A stretch of 64,000 nt of DNA, taken from assembly GCA_005879315.1 (NCBI GenBank), contig VBLC01000065.1, positions 1 through 64,000 of the forward strand, read 5' to 3'. The stretch comes from Deltaproteobacteria bacterium (GTDB lineage: Bacteria > Myxococcota > Myxococcia > Myxococcales > 40CM-4-68-19). This document shows, in pieces, positions 3,912 to 23,931 of the stretch; the first letter of the stretch is position 1; each line of letters starts with the position of its first letter. The notes beneath the pieces were generated by a model that was given only the letters and a program-made list of their open reading frames with translations, did no database searches and was not told the DNA's origin. Made by a program: the position numbers and the translations under genes.

Positions 3912-6900
3912 CTAGAAGTAGGCGTAGTGCAGCGAGATGTTCGGCACCCAGGTCGGCAGGCCGTCGGAGGTGGGGATGAGCCCGCCGATGTCGATGTTCC
4001 GCGCGAACTGCACGCGCAGCTCGAAAGGACCGAGGCCGAGGTTCACGCCCAGCACGTAGTCGGCAGTGCGGTTCTGCCAAGCCTCGGTCAACGTGGCTCG
4101 CAGCTTCGTGTATCCGGGATTGTTGAGCTGCGCGCGGCTGCTGTCGACCACGCCGCCGAAGTCGATGCCGACGACGCCGGTGATGCCGCTGAAGAGCGCA
4201 AAGCGGATGAGCACGTCGAGTGGGAACTGCAGCTCGGCCTGCGCGATGTAGTAGCCGTCGCCGAGGAGGCGCGCGTCGCCCCACTGGAAGCCGCGCAGGT
4301 TGTCGAAGCTGGAAAGATAGAAACGGCGGCCGAAGCGGCTCCCCTGCGCCAGGCCGGCGGCGACGCGGGCGTTGATCTTGCTGCGGCCCACCAGGCGGAG
4401 CGTCTGGATGGCGTCGGTCTGCAGGTAGCCGAAGATGCCGTCGGTGCCGCGCGTGGGAAGATCTCCTGCGCCGAATTCGATGAGGAAGGAGGTGCCGCCG
4501 ATGGCGCCGCCCGGGCCGTAGCGGGTGGTGTCCCAGCCGTAGGCGATGCTGGCCGTGGTCTCGGCATCGAATCCCTTGATCTCGTTCTGCTCACTCTGGC
4601 CGAGGTTGGCGCAGGAGAAGTCGCGCGCGATGGCGAAGCAATCGCTGAGGAACGATCGATTCACCCCCATCAACCGCGCGGCCGCATCGATGCGGCTGAA
4701 GGTGGAGATGGGATAGGAAAGCAGTCCCTCGCCGCCGAATTGCCTTTGCAGGTAGAAAACCTCGCAGGCATTGCCTTGGGTCCCGTTGGTCGGGGGCAAG
4801 AAGCATTTATATGCGCTGGGGAACCGGGTATCGCGGCCCTGCTGGAAGGTATGGAACAGGCCCAAGCCCCAGATCAATCGCTTCGATTTATCGACGTAGA
4901 AAGCGAGCGCGTCGGTGAGATCGAAAGAGCCATAGATGGCCAGATTCACCAGCGCCGTCCGATCGCGGAGGATGTCGGCGAAGATCACCCCGCCCTGGCC
5001 GACGGGCGCAAAGCCCACTCCTGCGCCACCGATTGCGGCGCCCCCGCCCTCGATGCGCCAGTTCTTGCTCAGATCGAATGGATCATAGGTCGGCGATTTG
5101 AAAGGGATGGGCTCGTCGGGAAAGGTAACGGGCTTGTCGATGGAAGCGAGATAGCTGGGAGGAATCGCGTCCTGCTCGTCGGCGCTGAGCAGGTCGGGGC
5201 TCGAGACTTCGAAGAGCCGGAACCGTGCGCCATAGAAAGCGACGCCATAGAAACCCTGCGGCGCAAGCCCCGGATGGGAGAGCGCCGTGGCAAAATCGGT
5301 GATGCGCTTGATGCGGCCATTCTGCAGGAACCAGAGATCGTATTTGCCTCCGGCGTCGCTGGAGAAGACGACCGCCTCGCCGGGCAGTGCCAGAGGATAG
5401 CGCTGGTCGACGGGCGCGTCGGTGAGCCGCACGCGGGTGCCATCGACAGGATTGATGCGGAAGAGGTTGTATTTTCCGCTCTCAGTGGCGTCGCTGGCGT
5501 AGACGATGCCGTCCTCGCCCCAGGAGAGATCGCGCTCGCTGTAGAGGTCCTCGGTGAGCCGGCGGACGTGCGCGTCCTGGGCGTAGATGTCGACGGTATA
5601 GATGTCGATCTTGCCGTCGCGATCGAGGCCATAGAAAGCGAGCTGCTTGCCGTCAGGGCTGAAAGTGGGATCGCCGGCCTCGATGACCCCGTCGCGGATG
5701 ACGTTGATCACCTTGGTCTCGCTCAGCTGCAGGTCGATGCGCGGGCGAGGCGAGTTTTCCGGGTGCGTCTCCTGCCGGCGCAGCGCACGGAAATGGAGCA
5801 CGTCGGAATCGCCCGATTGCGCGAACCAGGCAATGCCCGAATCGCAGACCGCCATCACCGAGCGCAGCACCGGGTGCAGGCTCTCGGTGCCGGGATGCTG
5901 GTCGATGGCGATCTGCTGAGATGACGAGGGATCGCGCCGGTCGAGCAAGACCAGCTTCGCGCGCGCGGTCTCCCGCTCCACGCCTCGATAGAAGAGCAGA
6001 TTGCCGTCGCTCGAGCTGATGAAGGCGTCGAGCTCGTCGGGGAGCTTCAGCTCGGTGACGTCGGGCAGGTCCTGCCGCGCGTCGAGGTAGGTGCGCATCA
6101 CCCGCTTGCGCGCCCAGGTCTGCCAGCGCGCGTTCATCTGCTGCGGCTGCTCGCCGGCGACCCGGCCGAGAAGCGCCATGAAACCTTCGCGCGCCTCCCC
6201 GCGCCGCGCCTGGCCGGCGAGGCGCGGGCTCTGGTCGAGCAATCCCTGGATCACCCGCTCGCCATAGGTCTCGGCGAGGAACACCAGCTTGGCCTGGCCA
6301 TACTTGTAAGTATAGAGATAGGCATAAGGCCTATCCTCTTCCAGAGTGGGAAAGTCATATCCGATCTCGCCGTTCGGATTGAGCACGATGTCGCGCAGGA
6401 ACATCTCGGTCTCGCTGTCCATCTGCTGGTTGTGCGCGTAGTACTCGGCGAGCCCTTCGGTGAACCAGAGCGGGAAGGCGTTGATCGGGCTCTCCAGCCC
6501 CGCGCTGGCGGAGCGCTCGGCCACTTTCTGGATGTGGAACTGGTGGGTCATCTCGTGCGTCGAGACCATGCGGAACATCTCGCGCTCGCCCGCGTAGGGC
6601 AGCGACATCTTCAAGTCCTGCGGGCTGGTCACGCCGAGCACGCCTTCCTGCACTTCGAAGACGTTGGTTTCGAGGAATTCCCGATAGGTATTGTAAAGGA
6701 TGTAAGGGACCTTGAAGGAAGGCCTGTACTGGAATCGGTCGCTCAAGTACCGCCAGCTCTCGCGCACCAGCCCCGCGGCGATGCGCGCCACCGGATATTC
6801 GCGGTCGTAGAAATAAAAGCGCACGCCGGCCGAGCCGTCGTCGTCGAGATAGTCGAAGTCGCGCCAGTGGTAATCGAAGTAGCGCACCAGGTTCTTGCCC

Positions 6901-7076
6901 GGGCGCTGCGGGACGACGTACGCCTCCTGGCTCCAGCCGACCGGCGCGCGGCCGGACACTTCCGAGAGCCGGCCGTGCTCGGACCACGGCAGGGAAAGCC
7001 GTGGCCCGGGCGGGAGACTGAACTCCGCCAGCGCCGGCCCGGCGCAGAGCAGCGCGGCGCAGAGGACTGTCTTCAT
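3912..7076 (-). CDS. Outer-membrane protein: HExxH peptidase + WD40-like propeller + C-terminal barrel
   Basis: A 1054-aa protein in three parts. It starts with a signal peptide (MKTVLCAALLCAGPALA). Residues about 40-290 form a gluzincin-type peptidase with H174-E-M-T-H178 and a third ligand E207 in LWFTEGLAEYY. The middle (about 300-615) has TolB/PD40-like propeller repeats such as FSPDGKQLAFYGLDRDG, YASDATESGKYNLF and FSSDAGGKYDLWF. The last 390 residues (from about 660) are Gly/aromatic-rich, amphipathic and end in YAYF, as in barrel proteins of the bacterial surface antigen (Omp85 C-terminal) type. The ATG at 7076 follows a purine-rich AAGGAAGGGAG. It probably sits in the outer membrane with the peptidase and propeller on one side. 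Substrate unknown. Confidence 0.85.
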   Translation of the reverse strand: MKTVLCAALLCAGPALAEFSLPPGPRLSLPWSEHGRLSEVSGRAPVGWSQEAYVVPQRPGKNLVRYFDYHWRDFDYLDDDGSAGVRFYFYDREYPVARIAAGLVRESWRYLSDRFQYRPSFKVPYILYNTYREFLETNVFEVQEGVLGVTSPQDLKMSLPYAGEREMFRMVSTHEMTHQFHIQKVAERSASAGLESPINAFPLWFTEGLAEYYAHNQQMDSETEMFLRDIVLNPNGEIGYDFPTLEEDRPYAYLYTYKYGQAKLVFLAETYGERVIQGLLDQSPRLAGQARRGEAREGFMALLGRVAGEQPQQMNARWQTWARKRVMRTYLDARQDLPDVTELKLPDELDAFISSSDGNLLFYRGVERETARAKLVLLDRRDPSSSQQIAIDQHPGTESLHPVLRSVMAVCDSGIAWFAQSGDSDVLHFRALRRQETHPENSPRPRIDLQLSETKVINVIRDGVIEAGDPTFSPDGKQLAFYGLDRDGKIDIYTVDIYAQDAHVRRLTEDLYSERDLSWGEDGIVYASDATESGKYNLFRINPVDGTRVRLTDAPVDQRYPLALPGEAVVFSSDAGGKYDLWFLQNGRIKRITDFATALSHPGLAPQGFYGVAFYGARFRLFEVSSPDLLSADEQDAIPPSYLASIDKPVTFPDEPIPFKSPTYDPFDLSKNWRIEGGGAAIGGAGVGFAPVGQGGVIFADILRDRTALVNLAIYGSFDLTDALAFYVDKSKRLIWGLGLFHTFQQGRDTRFPSAYKCFLPPTNGTQGNACEVFYLQRQFGGEGLLSYPISTFSRIDAAARLMGVNRSFLSDCFAIARDFSCANLGQSEQNEIKGFDAETTASIAYGWDTTRYGPGGAIGGTSFLIEFGAGDLPTRGTDGIFGYLQTDAIQTLRLVGRSKINARVAAGLAQGSRFGRRFYLSSFDNLRGFQWGDARLLGDGYYIAQAELQFPLDVLIRFALFSGITGVVGIDFGGVVDSSRAQLNNPGYTKLRATLTEAWQNRTADYVLGVNLGLGPFELRVQFARNIDIGGLIPTSDGLPTWVPNISLHYAYF

Positions 7077-20724: not shown

Positions 20725-21552
20725 ATGGCCGAGCAGACGGCAGTCTCGCCGCGCAAGCCGCCCGAGTGGCTGAAGCCGCTCGCCCGGCCTTTCGAGGTGC
20801 TGGGCGAGCTGTCCACCTTCACCGGCGCGTCGGTGGCGGCCGTCTTCCGGCCGCCCTATCGGGTAGGGCTGCTCTTCTCCCAGCTCGAGTTCGTGGCCTG
20901 GGGTTCGCTCTTCGTCGTCGGCCTGACCGGGCTCTTCACCGGCATGGTGCTGGCGCTGCAGACCGTCTACGCCTTCGGGCTCTTCAACGCGCAGAGCCTG
21001 GTGGGCGCGACCGTCGAGATCTCCCTGGCGCGCGAGCTGGCACCCATCTTCACCTGCATCGTGCTCGTCGCGCGCGTCGGCAGCGCGGTGGCAACCGAGC
21101 TCGGGACCATGCGCGTGACCGAGCAGATCGACGCGCTCGAGACGATGGCCGTCGACCCCTTGAACTACCTGGTGGTCCCGCGCGTTCTGGCCTCGGCGCT
21201 GGCGGCGCCGCTCCTCACCATGCTCTTCAATGCCATCGCGCTGGGGGGCGCGTACGGCATCGCCGTCTGGCTCAAGGATCTCTCGCCCGGCACCTTCCTG
21301 AACCGCCTCCAGGGCCTGGTGGAGGTGAAGGACATCACCAGCGGCCTGGGCAAGGCGGCGGTGATCGGTTTCGTGGTGACGATGATCGCCTGCTACCGCG
21401 GCTACCGCGCCGAAGGCGGCGCCCGCGGAGTCGGCATCGCCACGACGCAGGCGGTGGTCGGCGGGCTGGTGGCCATCTTCGCCATCGACTACATCTACAC
21501 CGCCATTTCCCTCAGCGGTCCCCAGGAAATGTCGGGAGGCCTGGGTGGCTAA
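20725..21552 (+). CDS. mlaE: Mla-type ABC transporter permease
   Basis: A 275-aa inner-membrane permease of the MlaE/YrbE family. It has the typical hydrophobic segments and conserved sequences ELAPIFTCIVLVARVGSAVATELGTMRVTEQIDALETM and RVLASALAAPLLT. With MlaF (ATPase) and MlaD (MCE protein) it moves phospholipids between the membranes. Its end overlaps mlaF by 8 nt. An extended N-terminus (about 40 residues) precedes the first membrane segment. MlaB and MlaC genes are not next to it. Confidence 0.93.
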   Translation: MAEQTAVSPRKPPEWLKPLARPFEVLGELSTFTGASVAAVFRPPYRVGLLFSQLEFVAWGSLFVVGLTGLFTGMVLALQTVYAFGLFNAQSLVGATVEISLARELAPIFTCIVLVARVGSAVATELGTMRVTEQIDALETMAVDPLNYLVVPRVLASALAAPLLTMLFNAIALGGAYGIAVWLKDLSPGTFLNRLQGLVEVKDITSGLGKAAVIGFVVTMIACYRGYRAEGGARGVGIATTQAVVGGLVAIFAIDYIYTAISLSGPQEMSGGLGG

Positions 21553-22300
21553 CGGCCCCGAGCCAGTCATCGACGTCCAAGGGGTGTACAAGAGCTTCAA
21601 CGGCTTCCAGGTCCTCAAAGGAATCGATCTGAAGATGATGCCGGGCACGACCACCGTGGTCCTGGGCGGCTCGGGCAGCGGCAAGACGGTCTTGATGAAG
21701 CACATCATGGGACTCTTCAAGCCCGACAAAGGGCGGGTGCTGGTGGACGGCGAGGACGTCTCGAACATGGGCCGGCAGGAGCTGTCGGTCTTCCGGCAGC
21801 GGATGGGGATGGTCTTCCAGAGCTCGGCGCTGTTCGATTCCATGACGGTGGGCGACAACGTCGCCTTCCCGCTGCGCGAGCACAGCAAGCTGAGCGAAGC
21901 CGAGATCATGCAGAAGGTGAAGGAAAAGCTCGCCATCGTCGATCTGCACGATGTCGAGGACAAGTTCCCGGCTGAACTGTCCGGCGGAATGCGCAAGCGA
22001 GTCGGGCTGGCCCGTGCCATCGTCCGCGAGCCCAAGATCGTGCTCTACGACGAGCCCACCACCGGACTGGACCCGCTCACGACCGAGAGCGTCGACGAGA
22101 TGATCATCAACGCACGCCAGCGCCTGGGGGTGACCTCGGTGGTCATTTCCCACGATGTCGGGTCTGCCTTCCACATCGGGGACCGCATCGCGGTGATCAA
22201 CGAGGGCCGGATCGTGGTCGAAGGCACCCCCGAGGAGGTCCGGCATACGCAGGAGCCGTTCACCCGTCAGTTTCTCGCAACCTGGTTCGGCAGGACATAG
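21545..22300 (+). CDS. mlaF: Mla-type ABC transporter ATPase
   Basis: A 251-aa ABC ATPase of the lipid-transport (MlaF) type. Walker A is GGSGSGKT, the signature is LSGGMRKRVGLARAI, and Walker B is IVLYDEPTTGLDPLT with the switch His in VISHDVG. The GTG start at 21545 overlaps mlaE. The LSGGM variant of the ABC signature, in place of LSGGQ, is usual in MCE-linked ATPases. It powers the MlaE permease and is followed after 11 bp by mlaD. Confidence 0.94.
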   Translation: MANGPEPVIDVQGVYKSFNGFQVLKGIDLKMMPGTTTVVLGGSGSGKTVLMKHIMGLFKPDKGRVLVDGEDVSNMGRQELSVFRQRMGMVFQSSALFDSMTVGDNVAFPLREHSKLSEAEIMQKVKEKLAIVDLHDVEDKFPAELSGGMRKRVGLARAIVREPKIVLYDEPTTGLDPLTTESVDEMIINARQRLGVTSVVISHDVGSAFHIGDRIAVINEGRIVVEGTPEEVRHTQEPFTRQFLATWFGRT

Positions 22301-22311
22301 GATCAACGCAG

Positions 22312-23931
22312 GTGCAATCTTTCTGGACACCGATCCGGGTCGGCCTGGTGGTCGCTGCCGCCGCGGCTGCCTTCGGCATCGGCCTGTGGCTGATCGGCGC
22401 CGACCTGTCCGGGGCCAGCAGCACGTACCGGGTCTACAGCGTCTTCGATGACGCAACCGGCCTCGGAGTGCGCTCGCGCGTGCAGATCGCCGGCATCCCG
22501 GTGGGGCAGGTGGACAAGATCGAGCTCGACCAGACGGTGGCGAAGGCCAAGGTCTGGCTGCGCATCAAGAAGAATTTCGTCCTCCACCGCGACGCCGGCA
22601 TCACCAAGCGCAGCGAGAGCATTCTCGGCGACTTCCTCCTCGACATCACGCCGGGCAGCGCCGACCAGCCCGCGCTCAAGGACGGCGACGAGATCAGGAA
22701 CGTGCTCCGCCAGCCGGGGATGAACGACGTCTTCCAGTCCCTCTCCAAGATCGCCGGCGACATCTCCGACATCACCGGCAACCTGCGAAAGGCGCTGGGC
22801 GGAGAGGCGGGCGAGAACAACATCCGCGGCCTCATCGCCTCCTTGCAGCGGATCACCGGCGGCCTGGAGAAGGTGATCGACACCGCCGGCGCCAAGCTCG
22901 ACGCCACCCTGAGCAACTTCCAGCACTTCTCCGGCGACCTCGCGCAGCTGAGCAGCAGCGAGGGCGAGGACATCGTCGCCATCCTCAAGAACACCCGCGA
23001 GGCCACGGCCCAGGCGCGCGACATCTTGAGGACCATCGGGGACGTCGTCGGCTCCTCGCAGAAGGGCGAATTCAAGGAGAGCGTCAAGAGCCTGAAGGGG
23101 AACCTCGACAAGCTCGACGCCACGCTCGCCAACATGCGGGACATCACCGACAAGGTGAACAAGGGGCAGGGAACCGTCGGGCACCTGATCAACGACGACA
23201 AGCTGAGCAGGAACCTCGACAAGGCAGCGTCGCAGCTCACTTCCATCCTGGGCACGCCCGACCAGCTCAGGGTGGAGATCAACGAGCGCAGCGAGCTGAT
23301 GGTCGGCGCGCCCAAGGGCGGCACGCCCGACCCGAACTTCGGCAACCTCGGCGCGGTCGCCAAGTCGACCGCGTACAATCCCTGGACCAAGAATTATTTC
23401 GGCATCCGGATCATCCCCCGGCCCGACAAATGGTACGGCTTCGAGCTGGTCGACGACCCGCGCGGCCTGACCAAGCAGGTGCGGACCAAGAACACCTGCG
23501 GAGCCTCGGACTGCGGCTCGCTCTTCCCGGCGTCGCTCGAGCAGATCACCACCGAGCGCCAGCTCAAATTCAGCGCCTATATCGCCAAGCGGTACGGGCC
23601 CCTCTCGGGACGCTTCGGCATCCTCGAGAATACCGGCGGATTCGGAATGAAGCTCCACCTCCTCAACGACGCGCTGACCATTTCCGCCGACGCCTTCGAG
23701 TTCGCCAACCCGCTCAAGGACCATCCGCGCATCAAGGTCTACGCCGACTGGCGGTTCCTCGACCACCTGCTCATCACCGTGGGCGGCGACGACCTGGCGA
23801 ACAAGGCGGTGGTGGACCCCGAGAACGACACCCGCATCACCAGCGGCCGCGACTTCTTCTTCGGCGCCGGGTTCTACTTCACTGACGAGGACATCAAGCT
23901 GCTCATCGCGGCGTTGCCCATTCGTTTCTGA
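22312..23931 (+). CDS. mlaD: MlaD/MCE-domain protein with long helical region and barrel-like C-terminus
   Basis: A 539-aa protein, about three times longer than E. coli MlaD. It has one N-terminal membrane helix (residues about 8-28) and an MCE domain (about 37-116: YRVYSVFDDATGLGVRSRVQIAGIPVGQV, ILGDFLLDITPGS). About residues 130-340 are long amphipathic helices (ITGGLEKVIDTAGAKLDATLSN and similar). From N356 to the end, alternating amphipathic strands with aromatic girdle residues appear (YFGIRIIPRPDKWYGFELV, KLHLLNDALTISADAFEF, IKVYADWRFLDHLLITVGG), closing with a terminal Phe (LPIRF). This fits an outer-membrane barrel, so the protein could reach from inner to outer membrane. GTG start at 22312. 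Confidence 0.88.
   Translation: MQSFWTPIRVGLVVAAAAAAFGIGLWLIGADLSGASSTYRVYSVFDDATGLGVRSRVQIAGIPVGQVDKIELDQTVAKAKVWLRIKKNFVLHRDAGITKRSESILGDFLLDITPGSADQPALKDGDEIRNVLRQPGMNDVFQSLSKIAGDISDITGNLRKALGGEAGENNIRGLIASLQRITGGLEKVIDTAGAKLDATLSNFQHFSGDLAQLSSSEGEDIVAILKNTREATAQARDILRTIGDVVGSSQKGEFKESVKSLKGNLDKLDATLANMRDITDKVNKGQGTVGHLINDDKLSRNLDKAASQLTSILGTPDQLRVEINERSELMVGAPKGGTPDPNFGNLGAVAKSTAYNPWTKNYFGIRIIPRPDKWYGFELVDDPRGLTKQVRTKNTCGASDCGSLFPASLEQITTERQLKFSAYIAKRYGPLSGRFGILENTGGFGMKLHLLNDALTISADAFEFANPLKDHPRIKVYADWRFLDHLLITVGGDDLANKAVVDPENDTRITSGRDFFFGAGFYFTDEDIKLLIAALPIRF

Follow-up and report, generated by a model that had tools for sequence, protein, structure and literature searches.

The last gene of a compact mlaEFD operon in the 64,000-nucleotide stretch of DNA analysed here (the window) encodes a 539-residue MlaD. 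We consider it probable (at about 0.85) that this protein belongs with the long MlaD known from Veillonella parvula, which carries a C-terminal barrel, and that it would act as a direct trans-envelope lipid bridge. In the arrangement that we propose, six copies of MlaD would sit on the inner-membrane MlaE–MlaF ATPase via their N-terminal helices and a ring of MCE domains; the amphipathic helices of the six chains would come together as a hydrophobic tube in the periplasm; and the C-terminal barrels would serve as its anchors in the outer membrane. Along this tube, phospholipids would travel directly, in place of the MlaA–MlaC shuttle. The hexamer, the tube, and the lipid cargo are proposed by analogy with relatives, as is the direction of flow, which would most likely be retrograde (i.e. 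from the outer to the inner membrane). A preliminary description of the sequence had already suggested that a single chain could link MlaEF to the outer membrane, and this suggestion gains support from the predicted barrel, the mlaEFD operon, and the absence of MlaA.

Gene order and the N-terminal half of MlaD

The operon and the N-terminal features of its last product are as follows:

20725–21552, + strand: mlaE, permease of a lipid ABC transporter (Pfam MlaE, E 4.8e-75; NCBIfam TIGR00056 over its cut-off)
21545–22300, + strand: mlaF, ATPase (Pfam ABC_tran; top NCBIfam model PRK11831 MlaF, below its cut-off)
22312–23931, + strand: mlaD, long form, 539 aa (open reading frame with GTG start; Pfam MlaD)
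22324–22392, + strand: predicted inner-membrane helix, MlaD residues 5–27 (AlphaFold2 secondary structure, hydrophobic sequence)
22423–22656, + strand: MCE/MlaD domain, residues 38–115 (Pfam MlaD, E 8.5e-14; modelled MCE fold)
22723–23250, + strand: amphipathic helical region, residues ~138–313 (AlphaFold2 helices, hydrophobic moment)

The genes are tightly packed in the order mlaE–mlaF–mlaD, where mlaE and mlaF share 8 nt and 11 nt separate mlaF from mlaD, so that mlaD, the last of the three, is accompanied by its MlaE and MlaF partners. An alanine racemase gene lies upstream of the operon and a nucleoside diphosphate kinase gene downstream. The MCE protein of 539 residues that had been placed at 22312–23931 corresponds exactly to the open reading frame with the GTG start.

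The N-terminal half of MlaD is matched by NCBIfam MCE and MlaD models, all below their cut-offs, and the modelled MCE fold compares with that of E. coli MlaD at a Z of about 17. In the helices between residues 138 and 313, the hydrophobic moment at 105 degrees is larger than in all 1000 within-helix shuffles. The helical stretch that had been noted behind the MCE domain is therefore present, with a length of about 176 residues (and with interruptions) in place of the 200 or so first estimated.

The predicted C-terminal barrel

Two further features complete the protein:

23269–23880, + strand: predicted C-terminal beta-barrel domain, residues 320–523, ~10 long strands (AlphaFold2, PDB matches, conservation, alternation)
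23884–23913, + strand: conserved C-terminal helix past the barrel, residues 525–534 (AlphaFold2, family alignment)

The full-length AlphaFold2 model, based on a four-sequence alignment, contains the transmembrane helix, the MCE fold, the helices at 138–313, and strands from residue 320 on. Because this model is poor (mean pLDDT 42.7), residues 316–539 were folded alone, again with four sequences, which gave a prediction of modest confidence (mean pLDDT 60.7, pTM 0.56, with the five models ranging from 29 to 61) and several long strands at pLDDT 70–80. By our reading of the secondary structure in both models combined, there are ten long strands (320–331, 358–370, 373–383, 416–428, 431–437, 443–452, 455–463, 473–482, 485–493, and 514–523), of which 443–452 and 455–463 are shorter in the model of residues 316–539. 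Shorter strands occur in a long loop (384–415), and a loop of variable length separates strand 320–331 from the next.

These models support a roughly ten-stranded barrel, the main structural likeness of which is to outer-membrane barrels. The leading VIA-align match is OpcA (Z 15.4, rmsd 5.1, 162 aligned), the second is TMB10, a transmembrane barrel of ten strands made by design (Z 14.7, rmsd 2.6, 137 aligned), and Pla/OmpT-type barrels come next; further down the list are porins of the KdgM/NanC type and some soluble barrels. Foldseek matches are nearly all outer-membrane barrels, with weak E-values (best 8e-4). A Pfam search with the C-terminal domains of 19 members returned no convincing family, and a profile of the domain found no match among solved structures (best E 0.055, regarded as a chance hit). 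The preliminary description had recognized a barrel-like domain from residue 356; its character is upheld, and its start moves to near residue 320, where the first strand begins.

The soluble barrels among the structural matches—Rv0813, spirocyclases, and a phycobiliprotein lyase, at Z 10–12 (Rv0813 12.2, OssO 11.3, CPES 10.2)—would suit another reading, namely a lipocalin-like C-terminal domain that would bind lipid as a soluble periplasmic barrel and stay out of the outer membrane. They rank, however, below the outer-membrane barrels that take the top Z values and fill nearly the whole Foldseek list, and no soluble fold stands out in the prediction. The pattern of conservation also speaks for the membrane: with strand boundaries taken from the full-length AlphaFold2 model, and hence in a test not fully independent of that model, hydrophobic strand positions in 19 non-redundant homologues had a mean entropy of 1.40 versus 0.98 for polar ones (p 0.046). 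In the MCE domain of these homologues the tendency is the opposite and non-significant (hydrophobic 0.82, polar 1.12, p 0.27). Strands with variable hydrophobic and conserved polar positions fit the lipid-facing exterior and polar interior of a membrane barrel, rather than a hydrophobic core.

The alternation of polarity that had been remarked on in this part of the protein is confirmed as well, residues 320–523 being predicted mostly as alternating strands, in which the two-residue hydrophobic alternation exceeds that of all 1000 within-strand shuffles. The last strand carries the pattern G518-x-x-[FILV]-x-F523, with F523 invariant in 19/19 homologues, and this outer-membrane-type closing motif resembles the beta-signal recognized by BAM. 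It was the Phe at the very end of the chain that had originally been read as a sign of a barrel; that residue is not conserved (Pro, Leu, Arg, or Phe in relatives), and the relevant aromatic is the invariant F523 that ends the last strand, ahead of the helix at 525–534. Given the fold matches, the conservation pattern, and this motif, we hold a soluble periplasmic barrel to be quite improbable. The host genome encodes two TamB and six Omp85 matches.

Elsewhere in the window, a long open reading frame (3912–7050, − strand) appears to combine an N-terminal region like a peptidase and repeats of the TolB/PD40 kind (both recognized by eye) with an Omp85-type barrel at the C-terminus (Pfam Omp85 at 4002–4397, E 2.6e-6).

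Distribution of the long MlaD, MlaA, and MlaC

Homologues of the protein are found in 58 of the 60 genomes of the host order, and the C-terminal barrel domain is found in 168/195 sampled genomes of the host phylum (137/149 when only good-quality genomes are counted). In the host genome itself, the barrel-domain profile matches in one place only. In two further families of the order (L043 and L044), a long mlaD is preceded on the same strand by genes for an alanine racemase, an MlaE-like protein, and an MlaF-like protein (gene order read by eye from the list of open reading frames). The viral contigs scanned contained no relative.

The operon lacks genes for both MlaC and MlaA, as had been observed at the outset. 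MlaA was found neither in the host genome nor in any of its 59 relatives (0/60), in a search for which the E. coli and Caulobacter controls were positive. A separate complete mlaA–mlaC set, which like a soluble C-terminal fold would have counted against the idea in the preliminary description, is also absent from the host genome, which holds one MlaC-family gene (PF05494) on another contig (C40:71246; L039 7148–7786). The encoded protein scores 82.5 bits with HpnM versus 40.5 bits with MlaC, both below cut-off, and in the two relatives examined the gene comes immediately after one for outer membrane efflux (OEP/TolC family). Because of its location on another contig, its greater proximity to HpnM, and this neighbour in the two relatives, the unlinked MlaC/HpnM-like gene probably lies outside the barrel-MlaD system. 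The search of related genomes suggested by the preliminary description thus favours the bridge with regard to MlaA but not with regard to the MlaC family, members of which are encoded in 42/60 genomes of the order.

The presence of this family in the host and in so many genomes of its order would suit a barrel that is an outer-membrane anchor only, with lipid exchange there being performed by another protein, perhaps the MlaC/HpnM-like one; whether the barrel serves for anchoring or for passage was left open by Grasekamp et al. (PMC10665443). Against such a division of labour stand the lack of linkage to the operon, the higher HpnM score, and the position behind an OEP/TolC-family gene, along with the failure to find the MlaC-like gene in many relatives that have retained a barrel MlaD; we therefore regard it as rather unlikely. 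It is highly improbable that bridge and shuttle coexist, with the MlaC/HpnM-like protein serving the barrel MlaD of the host phylum in a hybrid between an ancestral bridge and the MlaABC shuttle of proteobacteria.

Comparison with known Mla and other MCE systems

The direct bridge, which we prefer, has its closest counterpart in V. parvula, the MlaD of which (419 aa) consists of a transmembrane helix, an MCE domain, a helical stretch of ~150 residues, and a barrel of ten strands; a barrel construct of this protein is reported to fractionate together with the outer membrane (Grasekamp et al. 2023, PMC10665443). The 539-residue MlaD shares the transmembrane helix, the single MCE domain, a long region of amphipathic helices, and—by prediction, with modest confidence—a C-terminal outer-membrane-type barrel of about ten strands, the likeness being one between published domain features and our prediction. 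In both systems, MlaD has MlaE and MlaF as partners and MlaA is lacking. The two proteins differ in length (539 versus 419 residues) and in host phylum, and the helix past the barrel is a further difference from V. parvula MlaD, albeit one reported in some long-MlaD members of the type (PMC10665443). Finally, the host genome, unlike the V. parvula system, also has the unlinked MlaC/HpnM-like gene. Since the lack of MlaA and MlaC alongside a barrel-bearing MlaD is a general tendency and not a strict one (PMC10665443), an MlaC-family gene does not exclude membership of the Veillonella type. The trans-envelope MlaD of Veillonella named in the preliminary description was hence an apt comparison, matched here in its domains and in an mlaEFD operon without MlaA.

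The canonical MlaABCDEF system fits less well, as the host has no MlaA lipoprotein and its MlaD has 539 rather than ~183 residues. E. coli MlaD (of MlaFEDB) likewise has a transmembrane helix and an MCE domain and forms a transporter with MlaE and MlaF, but its 183 residues include neither a long helical region nor a barrel, and it acts together with MlaB, MlaC, and MlaA. In mycobacterial Mce1 and E. coli PqiB, helices continue the MCE domains and form a hydrophobic tube, as they would in the 539-residue MlaD, but the individual chain lacks a complete membrane barrel at its C-terminus.

The design of the long barrel MlaD was published in 2023, and the host protein is a further case of it, widespread in its own phylum. 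A literature search on myxobacteria and MlaD returned nothing relevant. Our results support the view that lipid bridges made of one protein, and not the MlaA–MlaC shuttle of E. coli, are the common form of Mla. Culturable and genetically tractable myxobacteria probably belong to the host phylum and would allow tests of the bridge in hosts other than Veillonella.

The host genome has a second MCE operon on contig C42 (L040 1533–4964), encoding an STAS–MlaE fusion, an ATPase, an MCE protein that gave no match to the barrel-domain profile, and an ABC_trans_aux lipoprotein. This operon resembles the Mla–Pqi chimera type reported in Brucella (PMC12436622).
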